A DNA stretch of 33,953 nt, from assembly GCF_900002405.1 (NCBI RefSeq), contig NZ_LK995485.1, forward strand, positions 57,491 through 91,443, written 5' to 3'. Numbering within the stretch: the first letter of the stretch is position 1; each line of letters opens with the position of its first letter. The notes below the pieces were generated by a model. That model had not been told where the DNA came from. It ran no database searches and saw nothing but the letters and a program-made list of their open reading frames with translations. This DNA comes from Actinomyces succiniciruminis (GTDB taxonomy: Bacteria; Actinomycetota; Actinomycetes; Actinomycetales; Actinomycetaceae). Made by a program: the position numbers and the translations under genes. Shown here in pieces: positions 11,633 to 19,880 of the stretch.

Positions 11633-11769
11633 GTGCCCGATAGAACCACCAATCCCCCTCCCGATTCAACGCCCGCGCCGTGAACGCGCGCAGAAATCGA
11701 CCGGCGGCCCGGTGAGAGATGCGGCGTCACAGCCTCCTGGCGGCACCCACACGTGCCTATGAGGTAACA

Positions 11770-12792
11770 ATGCGTCACACTGGTGCGGTGAACACCCCCG
11801 CATCCCCTGCGGCATTGACGTCCCGGCCCGGGACGCCCCCCTCGCCGTACATCGAGTTGCACCGCGACCAGTGGCGCGCGCTCGCCTCCGCCGCGCCACT
11901 GCCGCTGACCCAGGCGGACCTGGAGAAGCTGCGCGGCCTGGGTGATCCGATCGACCTGCCGGAGGTGGATGTGGTCTACCGGCCGCTGACGGCACTGCTG
12001 GAGCACTTCATCACCACCGCCCGCGAGCGCGCCCGCCGCACCGCCGACTTCCTGGGGGTGGATGAACGCCCCACGCCGTTCGTGGTGGCCGTGGCCGGCT
12101 CGGTTGCGGTTGGCAAGTCGACGACGGCGCGGCTGCTCGCCCACCTGCTGGCCCGCTTCCCGGACACCCCACGGGTGGACCTGGTCACTACCGACGGCTT
12201 CCTGCTGCCCAACGCCGTCCTGGAGGCGCGCGGACTGACCGCCCGCAAGGGTTTCCCGGAGTCCTACGACCAGAAGGCGCTGCTGGAGTTCGTCACCGCG
12301 GTTAAGTCCGGGGCGCCGCGGGTGGAGGCGCCGGTGTACTCGCACACCGTCTACGACATCGTGCCGGGCAGGAAGCTCGTGATTGAGCGGCCGGACGTGG
12401 TGGTGCTGGAGGGACTGAATGTGCTCCAGCCCGCCCCGCGGGTGCGCCACTCCCCCGGCAACGATGAGCGCCCGGTGACGTCGGCGCTGGCGGTGAGCGA
12501 CTTCATCGACTTCTCCATCTATGTGGACGCCGACCCGGAGGACATCCGCCGCTGGTACCTGGACCGCTTCCTGACGCTCAAGCACACGGCCTTCAAGGAC
12601 CCGAACTCCTACTTCCGGCGCTACCAGGCCATCCCGGACGACATCGCGCTGGCGGCCGCGAACGAGGTGTGGGAGAGCATCAACCTGGTGAATCTGCGGG
12701 AGAACATCGCCCCCACCCGGGGGCGGGCCACCCTGGTGCTGCACAAGGACGCCGACCATCACATGAGCCGGGTGCTGCTGCGCAAGGCCTGA
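11770..12792 (+). CDS. coaA: Type I pantothenate kinase CoaA
   Basis: Phosphorylates pantothenate, the committed step to coenzyme A. Counting from the ATG at 11770, the 340 residues show [12 protein letters not shown], the Walker A loop GSVAVGKST (110-118), [12 protein letters not shown], the [11 protein letters not shown] substrate loop and the C-terminal [16 protein letters not shown]. The family core begins near residue 26. The ATG at 11770 has a short AGG five bases upstream. A GTG at 11788 is an equally possible start giving 334 residues, and the two cannot be separated by eye. It is the only plus-strand gene in this part and diverges from glmS. It converges on the membrane-protein cassette with no clear hairpin between them. 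Confidence 0.93.
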
Positions 12793-12916: not shown

Positions 12917-14182
12917 CTACATGATGTCGCGGGACATGAGGTAGGCGATCCGCCGATCGTTGGCGCGGCGCTCCTGCTCGATCGCATCGTCGGGGACCGA
13001 ATAGTAGGTGCCGTCGTCGTAGGCGACTGCGCGGGAGACGCCCCACTCCCAGATGGTTTGTGCTGCGGCCGCAGCGGCCAGCAGGGCCTGATCCTCATGC
13101 TTAGAGAAACACGCCGTGCCGGGCACGCGCAGCGCTAATCCGGCAGGGTCGAGCAGCCATGCGGAGGCCTCGACGTGCCCGAAGTAGCGCCGGCTTCGTA
13201 CGAAGAAGTACGAGCTCGACGGCGGCCACGCCACTCGAAGGGTTCGCCACACCACAAGTGCCAGACCTTCCCGCGAGAGGATCGTGTGTTCCCGAACAAT
13301 CCGGTGCACACTGACCACGAGGCCGCCCGCGGATGCGACCAGCAGTATCCAGAAACCGCTGGACAGTCGCAGCGTCCCGTCCTCCCGGAATACTCCGGCA
13401 AAGGCCTGCGGCGTCCGCTCCGGGCCGAGCACGGCCGGCAGCGCCAGGATGCATAGGAACACGAGGATAACGATGTTGGGGATGAGACCGTGCCAGTTCG
13501 GCTTGTCTTTGAGGATTAGGGGCTCGTGGGCAAGCAGTGTCTGGTCTGCCGGCGGAGTGCGCAGCACCGGTACGGCCGGGTATTCGTTCTGCACATTACG
13601 AGGGCCGACACCTTGTGGTGAGAACAGGGCGGGCATGGTCTCGCGGGCGTAGCCGCGGGCCAGCGCCCAGGACCAGATGGCGTCGACCTCAGCCTCGAGC
13701 CGCGTCCGGGAGGATAGGCGCGGAGCGGACAGTCTCGTCCTTTTACCAGCCGTTTCCACCTCTACCACGGGCACTGGGGCGTGCTTGCCGCCGGCGTCTG
13801 TGACGACGATGAATCCGGCACGCGAGTCGGGCCAGGACAGGTGAACCGTCCGCAGCAGGCCTCGTGAGTGTATCCCGTGAGCGTCAAAAAGGGTGCGGCG
13901 CCGAAGCACCGCGACGCCGAGGAACAACAAAATCACCCCACCCGCGCACAGAGGTACGGTGACCGGCGACTCGGGATCGGCTGCATGCAGCGTCTGGACG
14001 ATGCTGAAAACTATGAGGCCGCCGAACAAGAAGACGACGCCGGCGACCAAGCTGGCGGCACCCGGTCGGCGCACCAGTGATCCCGAAACTTGGAGTCGTG
14101 ACGAGGCACTCCTCTGCGAACCGCCATACGGTGCGGCACCACGCTCGAACCCGTCTTGGGTGCCTTGCCAGGGGTAAGTCAT
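12917..14182 (-). CDS. Double PH-like membrane protein, third of cassette
   Basis: Unknown function. The 421 residues hold two copies of one module. Copy 1: SLVRRP at 35-40, membrane helices at about 44-65 and 74-94, then FDAHGIHSRGLLRTVHLSWP (99-118), a beta-rich stretch to about 155 and IWSWALARGYARE (169-181). Copy 2: LLAHEP at 216-221, helices at about 232-252 and 275-293, LSREGLALVVWRTLRVAWPP (302-321), LRVPG (351-355) and IWEWGVSRAVAYDDGTY (377-393). The tail is charged and helical. The beta segments look like bacterial PH-like (bPH) domains, which is an inference from pattern. The N terminus is longer and Gly/Ser-rich. ATG overlaps the preceding gene's stop by 4 bp. It is the most diverged of the three: in copy 2 the SR of WPPSR is SS. 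Confidence 0.8.
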   Translation of the reverse strand: MTYPWQGTQDGFERGAAPYGGSQRSASSRLQVSGSLVRRPGAASLVAGVVFLFGGLIVFSIVQTLHAADPESPVTVPLCAGGVILLFLGVAVLRRRTLFDAHGIHSRGLLRTVHLSWPDSRAGFIVVTDAGGKHAPVPVVEVETAGKRTRLSAPRLSSRTRLEAEVDAIWSWALARGYARETMPALFSPQGVGPRNVQNEYPAVPVLRTPPADQTLLAHEPLILKDKPNWHGLIPNIVILVFLCILALPAVLGPERTPQAFAGVFREDGTLRLSSGFWILLVASAGGLVVSVHRIVREHTILSREGLALVVWRTLRVAWPPSSSYFFVRSRRYFGHVEASAWLLDPAGLALRVPGTACFSKHEDQALLAAAAAAQTIWEWGVSRAVAYDDGTYYSVPDDAIEQERRANDRRIAYLMSRDIM

Positions 14183-15432
14183 CGCTGCTCCTGGGGAAAC
14201 GTGCGCAGGTACTCGATGCGTTGGGCGGTGGCGACGCGTCGCTGCTCCACCTCGGCGTCAGCGGCCGGCCGGTAGACGCCGTCATCTCGGGCTGCGCCGC
14301 TGGAGGCGCCCCATTCCCAGATCGCCTGAGCCATTGCCTCGGCCGCCAGCAGCGCTCGGCGTTCGTCACGGGAGGCCCAGTGCAGTCCCGGTATGCGCAG
14401 CGCCACGCCGTCGGGAGCGAGCAGCCGCAGCGACGCCGTGGTGCGCACCGATTCGTGGAACGCCAGCACGAAGATGCACGAGCGCGACGGCGGCCAGGTC
14501 AGCCGTTCGGTGCGCCACACGTCCTGCCACACCAGCCCCTCGGGCACGAGGGTCAGCCGGGTGCGCATCGTCTTGAACACGGAGAACAGGAGGTAGCCGA
14601 GTACGGAGATCAGCAGCGCGGCGGATACCCCGGCGAATGCACCGGACTCCGGAAAACGCCCGCCTAGCGCTGGGATGTGGCGCGGGCCCAGATCCGTCAG
14701 CAGCCGCATCCCGCCCGCCAAGGCGAGGTACACGACGCAAAGGATGATCGCCGGCCGGATGGCACTTCCCGCGGGCTTGAAGATCAGGGGATCGCGGGAC
14801 AGCAGGGCCCTGTCCTCGGGGGACAGCCCATCTGCGGGCGCCGAAGCCGGAGCCGGCCCGTCGTACCGAGGGGTGGGCGCCAGTGGTATCGGCCCGTCCG
14901 GTGCAGCCTCGAATTCGCGCACGTAACCGCGTGAGCGCGCCCACGCCCAGATCTCATCGACCTCTGCTTCCAGTCGGGAACGCAACCCATCGGGATTCAT
15001 GGCGGCAATGCGAGGCGCCGCCAGGGTTACGTTGCCGTCCGGCGTGGCCACGGCAACCGTGGCGGTCAGCACGTCGGTCGTGCCCCCGTTCTCTGAACGG
15101 ACCCGTTCGGAGACGTTGATAACGAAGGCGGTGCGGGAGGCGGGCCAGGGCAGGTGGACCGTCCGCAGCACGCCCCGGGAGTGAATGCCGGTGGCATCGA
15201 AGACCGTGCGAAATCTGAGCGGAGGCGCCAGGCCCCCACCGATCATCAGCACTGCCGCGCCTGCGACGCCGGCCACGGCGAACGGCGGCACGGACACGCC
15301 GAAGGCGAGCAACCGTGAACCGATTATCAGAAACATGACCCCCAACAGCGCGAAGAAGCCGCCGAAGACGTAGGTGAAGGGACTCGGCCGACGCACCAGC
15401 GACTCGGCGCCCCCTTGCCGTATACCTGTCAT
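14179..15432 (-). CDS. Double PH-like membrane protein, second of cassette
   Basis: Paralogue of its two neighbours, of unknown function. In 417 residues copy 1 has SLVRRP (11-16), membrane helices at about 20-39 and 50-70, FDATGIHSRGVLRTVHLPWP (78-97), SRTAFVI, LAAPRI and IWAWARSRGYVRE (161-173). Copy 2 has LLSRDP (210-215), helices at about 226-244 and 266-286, LVWQDVWRTERLTWPPSR (300-317), LRIPGL (345-350) and IWEWGASSGAARDDGVY (371-387), then a charged helix ending PQEQR. Both PH-like parts should lie on the same side as the N terminus, because each module has an even number of helices. It overlaps both neighbours by 4 bp, so the three are translationally coupled. No enzyme motif is seen. 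Confidence 0.82.
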   Translation of the reverse strand: MTGIRQGGAESLVRRPSPFTYVFGGFFALLGVMFLIIGSRLLAFGVSVPPFAVAGVAGAAVLMIGGGLAPPLRFRTVFDATGIHSRGVLRTVHLPWPASRTAFVINVSERVRSENGGTTDVLTATVAVATPDGNVTLAAPRIAAMNPDGLRSRLEAEVDEIWAWARSRGYVREFEAAPDGPIPLAPTPRYDGPAPASAPADGLSPEDRALLSRDPLIFKPAGSAIRPAIILCVVYLALAGGMRLLTDLGPRHIPALGGRFPESGAFAGVSAALLISVLGYLLFSVFKTMRTRLTLVPEGLVWQDVWRTERLTWPPSRSCIFVLAFHESVRTTASLRLLAPDGVALRIPGLHWASRDERRALLAAEAMAQAIWEWGASSGAARDDGVYRPAADAEVEQRRVATAQRIEYLRTFPQEQR

Positions 15433-16718
15433 CGCGTCTCCTGGGGATGTGACAGCAGGTAGTCGATCCGCAGCGCGGCGTCGGCCCGGTCGCGTTCGAG
15501 TTCCGCATCGACTGCGGCGCGGTAGACGCCGTCGTCACGGGCGACGCCGCGGGAGGACCCCCACTGCCATATGGACTGTGCGGCAGTCGCCGCCGGCAGC
15601 AGGGCGCGGCGATCGTGCTTGGAGCGCCACGTCAGGCCGGGCACGGCCATCGCCGTCCTGTCGGGGGCGAGTACGCACACCGTGGCCGTGGTTCGACCCG
15701 AGGTTCTACGGGATTGGACGAATACGCACGTGCGCGACGGCGGCCACGCCAGGTGCTGTGCGCCCCAGACCCCCGTCCACTCCAGCCCGTCCCGCGATAC
15801 CGTCAACCGCGAGCGCAGTCTGACCCACTCGCCAATCAGAAAGGCGGCCCCGACGCCGAGGTACACGCACGCGAGCACAATGGCCATCGATTCGGCGCCG
15901 TCGGAGGCCAGATCATCCACAGCTTGCAGTGCGCGCACCAGCACGAGGCCACCGACCAGCATGAAGCCGATCGACGCGGTTATGAACGCCGCCGTTCTCC
16001 CGTCCGGTCGTTGCTTGAGCACCAGGGGCTCGCGGGCCAGTAGCGTCTGGTCGGCGGCCGAGCCGCCGTATGCCGACGTCCGCGGCCCCGGCCCGGGCAC
16101 GTACCCGCCCTGGTCCCACTCCCGCGCGTAGCCGCGGTCGAGCGCCCATGCCCAGATCTCATCCAGGTCTGCCTCGAGGCGCGCACGCAGTGCCGGCTCC
16201 TCCCGCGCGGGTGCGGACAGGATGCGCGGCATCGCCAGTGTCGCGCTTCGCCCCGGCGCCAGCACGTGGACTGTGAGAGTCACCTCCCGCCGTCGTCTCG
16301 CGGAGTGCCTGTCGTTGCCCTGGTCATGACTGTGCGTACCCACGTCCACGACGAAGGCGGTGCGTGTGTCTGGCCAGGGCAGGTCCACGTGCCGGATCAG
16401 GCCGCGGGAGTGAATGCCGTCGGCGTCGAAGACCGTGCGCCGCGCCACCATGGTCAAGCCCGAGCAGATCAGCAGCAGCGCCATGCCGACAACGCCCCCG
16501 AGCCAGATGGACCGAATCGGCTCGTCTGACTCCAGGTCCGTCCGGACGCCGGCCACGGCTACCGCGACACCCGCCAGAGTGATGAGCGCGCCACCGACGT
16601 ACGTCATCGCATCCGGCCGACGGACCAGGGATTCGGGAGAGCCCGTCGAGGCGGCGCCTGGGGATATTGAAAGCTCCCCTTGCGGATCAGGCGTGAGACT
16701 GCAGGGGGATGCCGACAT
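15429..16718 (-). CDS. Double PH-like membrane protein, first of cassette
   Basis: First gene of the three-paralogue cassette, function unknown. In 429 residues copy 1 has SLVRRP (30-35), membrane helices at about 40-59 and 71-92, FDADGIHSRGLIRHVDLPWP (97-116), a His/Arg-rich loop at 128-144 not found in the paralogues, LAMPRI and IWAWALDRGYARE (188-200). Copy 2 has LLAREP (226-231), helices at about 243-264 and 278-297, LEWTGVWGAQHLAWPPSR (312-329), MAVPGLTW (357-364) and IWQWGSSRGVARDDGVY (383-399), and ends HPQETR. ATG at 16718 follows an AAGGAG ribosome-binding site, the only strong one in the cassette. It lies downstream of the HxlR-family gene in the same direction, after a 149-bp gap. 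Confidence 0.82.
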   Translation of the reverse strand: MSASPCSLTPDPQGELSISPGAASTGSPESLVRRPDAMTYVGGALITLAGVAVAVAGVRTDLESDEPIRSIWLGGVVGMALLLICSGLTMVARRTVFDADGIHSRGLIRHVDLPWPDTRTAFVVDVGTHSHDQGNDRHSARRRREVTLTVHVLAPGRSATLAMPRILSAPAREEPALRARLEADLDEIWAWALDRGYAREWDQGGYVPGPGPRTSAYGGSAADQTLLAREPLVLKQRPDGRTAAFITASIGFMLVGGLVLVRALQAVDDLASDGAESMAIVLACVYLGVGAAFLIGEWVRLRSRLTVSRDGLEWTGVWGAQHLAWPPSRTCVFVQSRRTSGRTTATVCVLAPDRTAMAVPGLTWRSKHDRRALLPAATAAQSIWQWGSSRGVARDDGVYRAAVDAELERDRADAALRIDYLLSHPQETR

Positions 16719-16867
16719 AGCAGCTCCTTAAAACAGCTGGTGGGCGCGAGGACGGTTTCAGGGCGCCAGTGACACGCGCCGCCGTGTCCGTCTCGTGATC
16801 TCGAGCTTAGCAGAGCCAGCGGGAGGTCATCCCCCAGACATCGTCCCCCGGGGCCTGCGGAACATGG

Positions 16868-17254
16868 CTAGTCCGCGCGTTCGGCGTCGTAGGCCTCGCG
16901 GGCGGCGAGCACGTCGTCCATGTGCCCGACGGCCCAGTTCTCCAGGGTGTCCATGACGTCGGCGAGGTCCCGCCCCAGTGCGGTCAACTCGTAGGTGACC
17001 CGCGGCGGGGTCTCGGTGTAGTACTCGCGCCTGACCAGGCCGTCGCGTTCCAGGGTGCGCAGCGTCTGGGTGAGCATCTTGGTGGAGATACCGTCCACGC
17101 GCCGGGAGATCTCGGTGAAGCGCAGCGGCCCCTCGTACAGGGCGCCGATGACCAGCACGCTCCACAGTTCACCGAGCTCCCGCAACAGGCGTCGCGAGGG
17201 GCAGGACCGGCTGTAGGGGTTGTAGGCGTGCTCGCCCTCACCTACCGCACTCAT
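16868..17254 (-). CDS. HxlR-family winged-helix regulator
   Basis: DNA-binding regulator of the HxlR type, a family that often senses quinones, aldehydes or other electrophiles and controls adjacent redox genes. The 128 residues are nearly all domain: YSRSCPSRRLLRELGELWSV with the family's N-terminal cysteine (C18), LRFTEISRRVDGISTKMLTQ (helix-turn-helix, about 45-64), LRTLERDGLVRREYY (wing) and YELTALGRDL. The ATG at 17254 follows a strong GGGAGGA site. An upstream in-frame ATG at 17296 is disfavoured because it lacks one. The likely target is the NAD(P)-binding protein gene just upstream. The PH-like cassette downstream is another possible target. Confidence 0.88.
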   Translation of the reverse strand: MSAVGEGEHAYNPYSRSCPSRRLLRELGELWSVLVIGALYEGPLRFTEISRRVDGISTKMLTQTLRTLERDGLVRREYYTETPPRVTYELTALGRDLADVMDTLENWAVGHMDDVLAAREAYDAERAD

Positions 17255-17410: not shown

Positions 17411-18043
17411 TCACTTGATGACGGCGAAGCCTCCGGTCCAGGTGACCTGCTCGCTCAGGGCCAGGCCGATCTGGAGCGCACCCATGGCCTCCAGCTCATG
17501 CGCCCGCTTGAGCGCTCCGGCGTCCACATAGGCCAGGCCGGCCGCCTCCACGAGAGCGCGCAGGGTCGCCTTGGCGTCCTCGCTGTCCGCGGCGGCATAG
17601 ACGGTGACCGGCTCACCGGCAATGGTGCCGGCGGCGAGGGTCGCGGCGAAGTTCGTGTTGAAGGCCTTGACGACCTGCGCTCCAGGCAGGCGCTCGGCGA
17701 GCTCCGCGGCGGCGGAGGAGCCGGGGGCGACGACGGAGTCGAGCGTGCCGAAGTCGATCGGGTTGGAGGGGTCGACGACGATCTTGCCGGCGAAGGCCTC
17801 CGCGGGGTAGGCGGACAGCACCTCGGCGATGGCCGGGAAGGGCAGAGCCAGGACGACCAGGTCGCCGGTGACGGCGTCGCCGACGGTTCCGGCGGTGGCG
17901 CCGTCGGCAGCAGCGGCGGCCTTCGCGGCGTCGCGGGCAAGCACCTGGACGGAGGCGCCGGCCTTGACGGCGAGCTGGGCGACGGCGGAGCCGATGGCAC
18001 CGGCTCCGAAGACGGTAACGGACGGGAGGGATGCAGCAGCCAC
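17411..18043 (-). CDS. NADPH-dependent F420 reductase-like oxidoreductase
   Basis: NAD(P)-binding protein of the F420-dependent NADP reductase/COG2085 type. The 210 residues start with a Rossmann fold (VTVFGAGAIGSAVAQLAVKAG, here 10-30 in parts: GAGAIG at 13-18). They continue with DLVVLALPFPAI, the family's VVDPSNPIDF and QVVKAFNTNFA, and a C-terminal helical part (ALKRAHELEAMGALQIGL). Many members do not use F420 and act on unknown substrates, so the substrate is open. The GTG at 18043 has AAGGAG eight bases upstream. It diverges from pntA across 280 bp and neighbours an HxlR-family regulator. Together these suggest a redox-responsive pair. Confidence 0.8.
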   Translation of the reverse strand: MAAASLPSVTVFGAGAIGSAVAQLAVKAGASVQVLARDAAKAAAAADGATAGTVGDAVTGDLVVLALPFPAIAEVLSAYPAEAFAGKIVVDPSNPIDFGTLDSVVAPGSSAAAELAERLPGAQVVKAFNTNFAATLAAGTIAGEPVTVYAAADSEDAKATLRALVEAAGLAYVDAGALKRAHELEAMGALQIGLALSEQVTWTGGFAVIK

Positions 18044-18076
18044 GAAGTTCTCCTTACTGCGTGCGGTGGTTCCGAC

Positions 18077-18104
18077 GGGTATTACTCTCTCTCGGTAACC
18101 CACT
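18077..18104. promoter_or_regulatory. Candidate operator and -10 of the NAD(P)-binding gene
   Basis: GGGTATTA at 18077-18084 and TAACCC at 18096-18101 form an imperfect inverted repeat with one extra base. It overlaps a minus-strand -10-like TAATAC (18084-18079), 36 bp upstream of the GTG at 18043. The word AGTGGGTTACC in the right half (minus strand 18104-18094) occurs again at 17388-17398, downstream of the same gene. The HxlR-family protein encoded next door is the obvious candidate binder. This is inference from position and symmetry only. Confidence 0.35.
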
Positions 18105-18211
18105 TCCCGCAAGAGAGCTTTTAAGTGAGTCGAGCCACATCCTCCACCGACGCGGGCGGCCCACCCACAACCGCTTCGCACCGCCCAAGGCCCGCGGCGG
18201 TGAGACGCCGC

Positions 18212-18240
18212 GTGACACCCACCCCGACGCGTTCTACTGT
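18212..18240 (+). promoter_or_regulatory. Candidate promoter of pntAB
   Basis: GTGACA at 18212-18217 (five of six bases of the -35 consensus), a 17-bp spacer and TACTGT at 18235-18240 form a well-spaced vegetative-type promoter on the plus strand. It would give a leader of about 77 nt before the pntA ATG. Confidence 0.5.
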
Positions 18241-18323
18241 TGCGTGAGTCACCACGCGCGCCCGTATTCCCCAACCCGCGGTCGCCGCCGCGCCACCGGG
18301 CGCGCCCGCTGAAAGGAGCTTCT

Positions 18324-19880
18324 ATGCGTCTTGGAATCCCCTGCCAGCCTCCGGACCGCTCCATGACCGCGGCCACGCCGCAGACAGTGGAACAGCTGAT
18401 CCGTCTGGGCTACGACGTCGTCGTCCAGCGCGGAGCCGGGGCACCGGCCCAGTTCCCCGACGACGCCTATGAGGAGGCAGGCGCGCAGCTCGCCGACCGC
18501 GCCGAGACCTGGGGCTGCAACGTCGTCGTCACCGCCTATGCGCCCGACGACGCCGAGCTGGACCTCATGCACCCGGGCGCCACCCTCATCGGCAGGCTCG
18601 ACCCCGCCCGCCATCCCGAGCTCGTGCAGAGCCTGCAGGACCATTCCCTCACCGCCCTGGCAATCGACACCGTGCCGCGCATCTCCCGGGCACAGAGCAT
18701 GGACGTGCTCTCCTCCCAGGCGAACCTGGCCGGCTACCGGGCCGTCATCGAGGCCGCCGCGCACTTCGGCCGCCTGCTCAACGGCCAGGTGACCGCCGCC
18801 GGCAAGTTCCCGCCCGCCTCCGTGTACGTGATCGGCGCGGGCGTGGCCGGCCTGGCCGCCATCGGTACCGCCTACTCCCTGGGCGCCGTCGTCAAGGGCA
18901 CCGACGTGCGCCCCGAGGTGGCCGACCAGGTCAAGTCGGTGGGGGCCGAGTTCGTACCCGTGCCCACCGCCCAGGAGGTGTCCGCCGACGGCTACGCCAA
19001 GGAGATGAGTACCGACCAGGCGGCGCTGGCGAACGCCCTGTATGCGGAGCAGTCCGCCGCCGCGGACATCGTGATCACGACGGCGAACATCCCCGGCCGC
19101 CGCGCCCCGCTGCTGCTGGACCGCGCCGCGATCGACGCCATGCGCCCCGGCTCGGTGATCGTGGACATGGCGGCCGCCAACGGAGGCAACACCGAGCTGA
19201 CCGTGCCCGGTGAGGTGGTCACCACCGACTCCGGTGTGACCATCGTCGGCTACACCGACCTGGCCGAGCGTCTGCCCGCCCAGGCCTCCCAGCTGTACGG
19301 CCGCAACATCCTCAACCTGCTTACCCTGGTCACCCCCGCCAAGGACGGCGACCTGACCCTGGACCTGGACGACCAGGTGGTGCGGGCCATCACCGTGTGC
19401 CAGGCCGGCGAACTGCTGTGGCCGCCGCCGCCCGTGGCGGTCTCGGCCGCCCCCAAGGCGCCGGCGGCCCCGACCCCCGAGCCGGCCCCCGATGCCTCCG
19501 CCGACGCCGAGGCCCAGGCCGCCGCCCGGGCCCGTTCACGCCGGCGCATGACCATCGGCCTCGCGCTGGCCGCCGTCGCAGTCGCCGTCCTGGTGCTGGT
19601 CACCCCCGCGGCCGCCACCAGCCACTACATCGTGCTGGCCCTGGCGGTCATCCTGGGATTCCACGTCATCTCCAACGTGACCCCGGCACTGCACACGCCG
19701 CTGATGTCGGTGACCAATGCGATCTCCGGCATCATCCTGCTCGGCGCCATCTCGCAGGTCGGCAACGCCAACCCGGCGATCAGCGCCGTCGCCTTCATCG
19801 CGATCCTGCTCGCGTCCATCAACGTCTTCGGCGGCTTCGCGGTCACCAACCGCATGCTCGCCATGTTCAGGAAGGAGTGA
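18324..19880 (+). CDS. pntA: NAD(P) transhydrogenase subunit alpha PntA
   Basis: Soluble NAD(H)-binding domain I plus the first part of the membrane domain of proton-translocating transhydrogenase, which makes NADPH from NADH using the proton gradient. Of 518 residues, 1-390 are domain I, with [20 protein letters not shown] (about 119-138), the Rossmann loop GAGVAG (171-176) and [11 protein letters not shown]. An Ala/Pro-rich linker follows, then about 409-518 hold four hydrophobic helices ending [17 protein letters not shown]. This is the two-subunit E. coli layout, not the three-subunit split seen in many bacteria. In the N-terminal motif, where relatives read MRIGIPRE, this protein reads [13 protein letters not shown]. 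The ATG at 18324 follows AAAGGAG. It overlaps nothing, and pntB starts 4 bp after its stop. Confidence 0.95.

Follow-up and report, generated by a model that had tools for sequence, protein, structure and literature searches.

An array of three overlapping paralogues

The 33,953-nucleotide stretch of the Actinomyces succiniciruminis genome analysed here (contig NZ_LK995485.1, positions 57,491 to 91,443; the whole stretch is called the window) carries three paralogous genes on its minus strand, which we name A, B and C and refer to together as the array. A preliminary description had reported three overlapping paralogues of 421, 417 and 429 codons on one strand with 4-bp overlaps, and this was confirmed by the open reading frames (ORFs) and by BLASTP. 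Indeed, all three frames were chosen by a gene caller based on GC content at third codon positions (GC3), the A/B and B/C overlaps both read ATGA, and the pairwise identities of 37-43% (E 3e-58 to 7e-92) are far beyond chance. The MAFFT alignment gave 46% identity for A and B and 39% for A and C. The motifs described as shared are present, with minor corrections: A has WPDTR for the first WPxSR, and C has WPPSS for the second WPPSR.

15429..16718, minus strand: gene A, 429 amino acids, first in the array, two units each of a transmembrane (TM) hairpin and a PH-like domain (ORF, motifs)
14179..15432, minus strand: gene B, 417 amino acids (ORF, structure model)
12917..14182, minus strand: gene C, 421 amino acids, last in the array (ORF, motifs)
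16724..16729, minus strand: ribosome-binding site AAGGAG of A
15438..15442, minus strand: ribosome-binding site AGGAG of B, within the end of A, coding for part of A's PQETR tail
14188..14192, minus strand: ribosome-binding site AGGAG of C, within the end of B, coding for part of B's PQEQR tail

Instead of the one strong ribosome-binding site at the front that had been described there are three, each gene having its own AGGAG 5 bases ahead of the ATG. The sites belonging to B and C fall within the coding ends of A and B, respectively, so that the PQExR tail common to A and B doubles as the ribosome-binding site of whichever gene follows; C, at the end of the array, is without that tail.

Protein architecture and relatives

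Each product consists of two copies of one unit, in which a short strand is followed by a TM hairpin and then by a PH-like domain. The predicted structure of B (pLDDT, the predicted local distance score, 81.4; pTM, the predicted template modelling score, 0.66), a single-unit model (pLDDT 88) and the hydropathy, with the hydrophobic helices arranged as hairpins, show A, B and C as membrane-type two-unit proteins of this TM-PH design. The structure models and a bPH_6 profile match also bore out the earlier assignment as PH-like membrane proteins, and family searches of A, B and C found no enzyme family, again in line with what had been described. The two units of B were modelled as follows:

14932..15399, minus strand: unit 1, residues 12-167, with a strand, TM 18-43, TM 50-73, PH-like strands 75-144 and helix 147-167 (B model)
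14302..14787, minus strand: unit 2, residues 216-377, with a strand, TM 225-247, TM 264-290, PH-like strands 292-354 and helix 357-377, an EROS-like layout (model, fold comparison)

According to these models, each unit is built as a PH-like domain that takes up a TM hairpin after its first strand; it is related to bPH_6 (PF10756), and by their sequences A, B and C are divergent relatives of that family. Pfam's gathering score of 22 bits is not reached (A 11.6 and B 13.3 bits, C without a match). Some relatives have PF10756 as a precomputed label, 15 of the 40 family rows match bPH_6 at E<=0.1 (best 8e-7), and hhalign of the family against 11 bPH_6 proteins gave a probability of 92.2 (E 5.9e-7, 35 columns). 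The PH-like fold expected of bPH_6 is present in the family models, and the likeness extends to the strand register around the GIxxRGxxRTxxxPW stretch. The array proteins differ from bPH_6 in having two units each, a TM hairpin within each unit and a tandem arrangement.

Among solved structures, the best match for one unit was the membrane chaperone EROS/CYBC1 (8kei chain D), with a TM hairpin and a PH-like fold over 142 of 164 residues. EROS is a eukaryotic, single-unit protein with 11% identity in the alignment, and the likeness seen is one of fold; a sequence search of the PDB with the unit profile returned no EROS row at E<=10, a search that distant homology could escape.

Remodelling of the array between genomes

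The gene coaA is present in 48 of the 49 genomes of the genus, and 20 of the 48 regions were fetched, the six closest first. The array stands between coaA and pntA in six of these 20 regions, which makes seven genomes including the window. In the window, the flanking genes are:

11719..12792, plus strand: pantothenate kinase coaA (PRK family by Pfam, the name being a reading of the match), in the same place in all seven array genomes
16868..17251, minus strand: HxlR regulator, adjoining the array in five of seven genomes (not in A. ruminis and A. ruminicola)
18318..19880, plus strand: pntA, transhydrogenase alpha subunit

At this place the number of gene-sized copies is 3, 3, 2, 2, 2, 1 and 0, and several of them are broken:

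Window: A, B, C
A. ruminis: A, B (frame break), C
A. glycerinitolerans: D and a B/C hybrid
Actinomyces sp. 594: D and C
Genome G168: A (frame interrupted) and C
A. ruminicola: one C with a frame break
Genome G169: remnants of B and C

The preliminary description took all three paralogues to have been kept. The survey instead found three with one frame break, two, one or remnants, along with hybrids and a different paralogue, and of the seven genomes the window alone has the undisturbed set of A, B and C. Two of the remaining 14 regions (L095, L099) have coaA and pntA as direct neighbours, 141-220 bp apart, an arrangement that likely preceded the array's arrival. In A. ruminis a frame break splits coaA itself (L085 9467-10506), hinting at sequencing errors in this contig. 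Next to the array, a gene for an F420-dependent-type oxidoreductase (window 17414-18376) is intact here and mostly missing at L081 in Actinomyces sp. 594, where only 42 residues match; its loss there is another sign of a labile region.

The array was remodelled by recombination between paralogues, by way of conserved blocks and of the linker between units, and this recombination changed copy number, made hybrids and exchanged whole units. In A. glycerinitolerans the flanks are 98.3% and 97.0% identical in DNA to those of the window and the array is different, consisting of the divergent fourth paralogue D and a truncated B/C hybrid. This hybrid switches at the end of B's GIHSRGVLRTVHLPWP block, the match to B ending at 15134. 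Other hybrids are A proteins bearing the tail of B or of C. Furthermore, the first unit of C has been swapped, the break falling where the two units meet: synonymous divergence (dS) from the orthologues in genomes G176 and G172 is 0.58 in unit 1 in both comparisons and 0.14 and 0.21 in unit 2, where flank genes give 0.22-0.29. Both comparisons place the breakpoint at codon 213, a result reached by none of 500 codon permutations.

15132..15198, minus strand: the GIHSRGVLRTVHLPWP region of B, a conserved block whose 60-nt windows reach up to 82% identity with C
12971..13368, minus strand: part of C, most of unit 2, that is missing from the A. glycerinitolerans B/C hybrid
13541..13546, minus strand: module-exchange breakpoint in C, codon 213, in the linker between units, with a sharp drop in divergence from the G176 and G172 orthologues

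The ratio of nonsynonymous to synonymous divergence (dN/dS) was 0.41-0.45 in three whole-gene comparisons (C in two genomes, A in one) and 0.38-0.63 in three partial comparisons of array genes. Flank genes gave 0.07-0.34, with the exception of HxlR against A. glycerinitolerans (0.93, on very few changes). Ratios near 0.4 indicate that the array proteins are still selected to work. In the 39-row tree, A, C and D form separate, well supported groups and B sits on a long branch near A (89/81), so that the copies are old, and the earlier statement that they are not recent redundant copies holds.

The family is found well beyond this place. At E<=1e-5, at least 52 of 213 Actinomycetaceae genomes match a 40-row profile, a lower bound as few candidates per genome were scored; in Actinomyces, the genus of the window, 36 of 49 genomes match and 13 have no match at E<=0.001. 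Clustering of the fetched loci by flank genes puts the family at several fixed places, namely beside holB, near PEPCK, beside an HhH-GPD glycosylase gene (mutY-like), beside a UbiA gene, at coaA and at one site in another genus. The mutY-like site holds 3, 2, 2 and 1 copies in four loci (L108 5086-7829, L116, L135, L137), and the site in another Actinomycetaceae genus three against two copies in two loci. There the copies are three and two tandem short members (239-285 amino acids), with touching or overlapping ends and the same flank genes, at L131 2213-4554 and L132 1998-3497. Near PEPCK there are two copies in five of ten loci and one in the other five, a count that leaves out L112, probably an eleventh locus. 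In five genomes of the genus (L109, L120, L121, L122, L123) this site has an adjacent pair of 444-445 and 420 amino acids with a 26-bp gap in every case, and the pair's proteins belong to two old groups in the 39-row tree.

Possible role of the array

Few functions are known for bacterial PH-like membrane proteins, and a family shuffled unit by unit among close bacterial relatives suggests a partner that varies. Our preferred reading, to which we give a probability of about 0.42, is a tandem array of accessory membrane proteins, recombining and interchangeable variants that are perhaps protective. The array would be a tandem set within an Actinomycetaceae family in which tandem copies are born and lost and modules are exchanged, as in arrays of toxin-immunity genes. 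Every protein would be an interchangeable variant in its own right, working by itself or as a homo-oligomer, its PH-like units on the cytosolic face and its hairpins in the membrane, and the partner would vary. With less assurance, the variants might bind or neutralise the varying membrane-active peptides or toxins of competitors, as orphan immunity or membrane protection. By analogy, protection against membrane-acting peptides or toxins is our leading guess for the role, and a tentative one. Its fullest form, an orphan-immunity or membrane-protection system of two-unit TM-PH proteins, diversified by unit exchange and paralogue fusion so that each lineage holds its own set of variants against the membrane-active peptides or toxins of competitors, is doubtful.

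The analogy comes from two sides. YdbS and YdbT (bPH_2, PF03703) and the PH proteins of leaderless bacteriocin clusters have the same repeated layout of two TM segments and a PH domain in one membrane protein, YdbS with 2 TM and 1 PH and YdbT with 6 TM and 3 PH (PMC8657885). YdbST protects against amylocyclicin (PMC8144471), a leaderless bacteriocin depends on DdE/DdF for its transport (PMC8657885), and similarly laid out membrane PH proteins have been tied to protection against bacteriocins or to their transport in Actinomycetota clusters (PMC11580447) and for geobacillin 6 (PMC10311245). The esaG and tipC immunity arrays of the type VII secretion system evolve by the same pattern as the array, being strings of non-identical paralogues that change in copy number and form mosaics in conserved blocks (PMC9484751). 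We find tandem non-identical paralogues with copy-number variation and paralogue recombination in conserved blocks in the Actinomyces array as well. The likeness is one of array pattern, and the toxins are known for esaG and tipC, whereas no linked cognate toxin gene was found among the scanned window and neighbour genes.

Several observations weigh against a protective array. No toxin, bacteriocin or secretion gene was found among 20 neighbour proteins from 12 of 20 family loci (17 of 20 with a Pfam match), nor beside the array among 20 of the 27 other genes called in the window, where secY, for the general translocase, lies 15 kb off. Neither of the two gaps next to the array has an ORF resembling a peptide gene, in a check for small ORFs that was confined to these gaps, and PADLOC gave no match. 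The link to YdbST is weak in sequence, with an hhalign probability of 15.1 against eight bPH_2 proteins of the genus; PF03703 gave no row for A, B or C in a scan that filters out most matches above E 0.1. A in genome G168 is no more diverged than the flank (dS 0.12 and 0.20 in two pieces, 0.31 for pntA). The PEPCK pair is stable in five genomes and is the strongest evidence for a two-partner arrangement. Finally, recombining arrays occur also in families with no role in conflict.

One rival explanation is a lineage-specific expansion without an arms race, in which tandem copies are gained and decay near-neutrally, with weak benefits of dosage or redundancy. Many copies are broken or truncated (L082, L083, L084 and the hybrid in L080), and dN/dS is lower in most flank comparisons, which both favour it. 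The ratios of the array genes nevertheless lie near 0.4 and not 1, the open frames are long, arrays recur at several sites, and module exchange preserves the frame and the domain borders, which makes this explanation unlikely. Rather unlikely, too, is that the proteins are assembly factors, with EROS-like units that chaperone or scaffold one membrane complex or several, each paralogue having its own client. The fold and TM layout of the assembly factors EROS and Ycf4 agree with the family unit, but a fold match is not function, and Foldseek gave no E below 0.001; a fixed client predicts a stable copy number, which varies between genomes with near-identical flanks, and 13 of the 49 genus genomes show no family match at E<=0.001. 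An obligate hetero-trimer or equimolar three-subunit complex, as the preliminary description had inferred, fits the overlapping genes on one strand, their old divergence and the three intact genes of the window, but is very improbable given the copy-number survey at coaA, where single- or two-gene arrays, hybrids and paralogue D replace the set elsewhere, and given a ribosome-binding site for each gene.

Of the two patterns that the description had set against its complex, genomes with one copy only were found in part, but random recent duplications were not. The array proteins may form homo-oligomers or facultative hetero-oligomers. The observation on the sequence was right, and the survey leaves a recombining, lineage-specific family of membrane proteins that offers a testable handle on what TM-PH proteins do. 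It also calls for caution in general, as overlapping paralogous genes need not be subunits of one complex.

The surroundings of the array in the window are housekeeping genes, including secY, rpoA, rplQ, a truA-like gene, rpsI, a glmM-like gene, transhydrogenase, glmS and alanine racemase (18 of the 20 genes scanned matched Pfam, and short gene names are read from the matches). Elsewhere in the same genome, bPH_2 matches arranged like a YdbS/YdbT pair stand apart from the array at C22:3360-5443, and a bPH_6 protein at C22:45525 adjoins a gene for a solute-binding protein.
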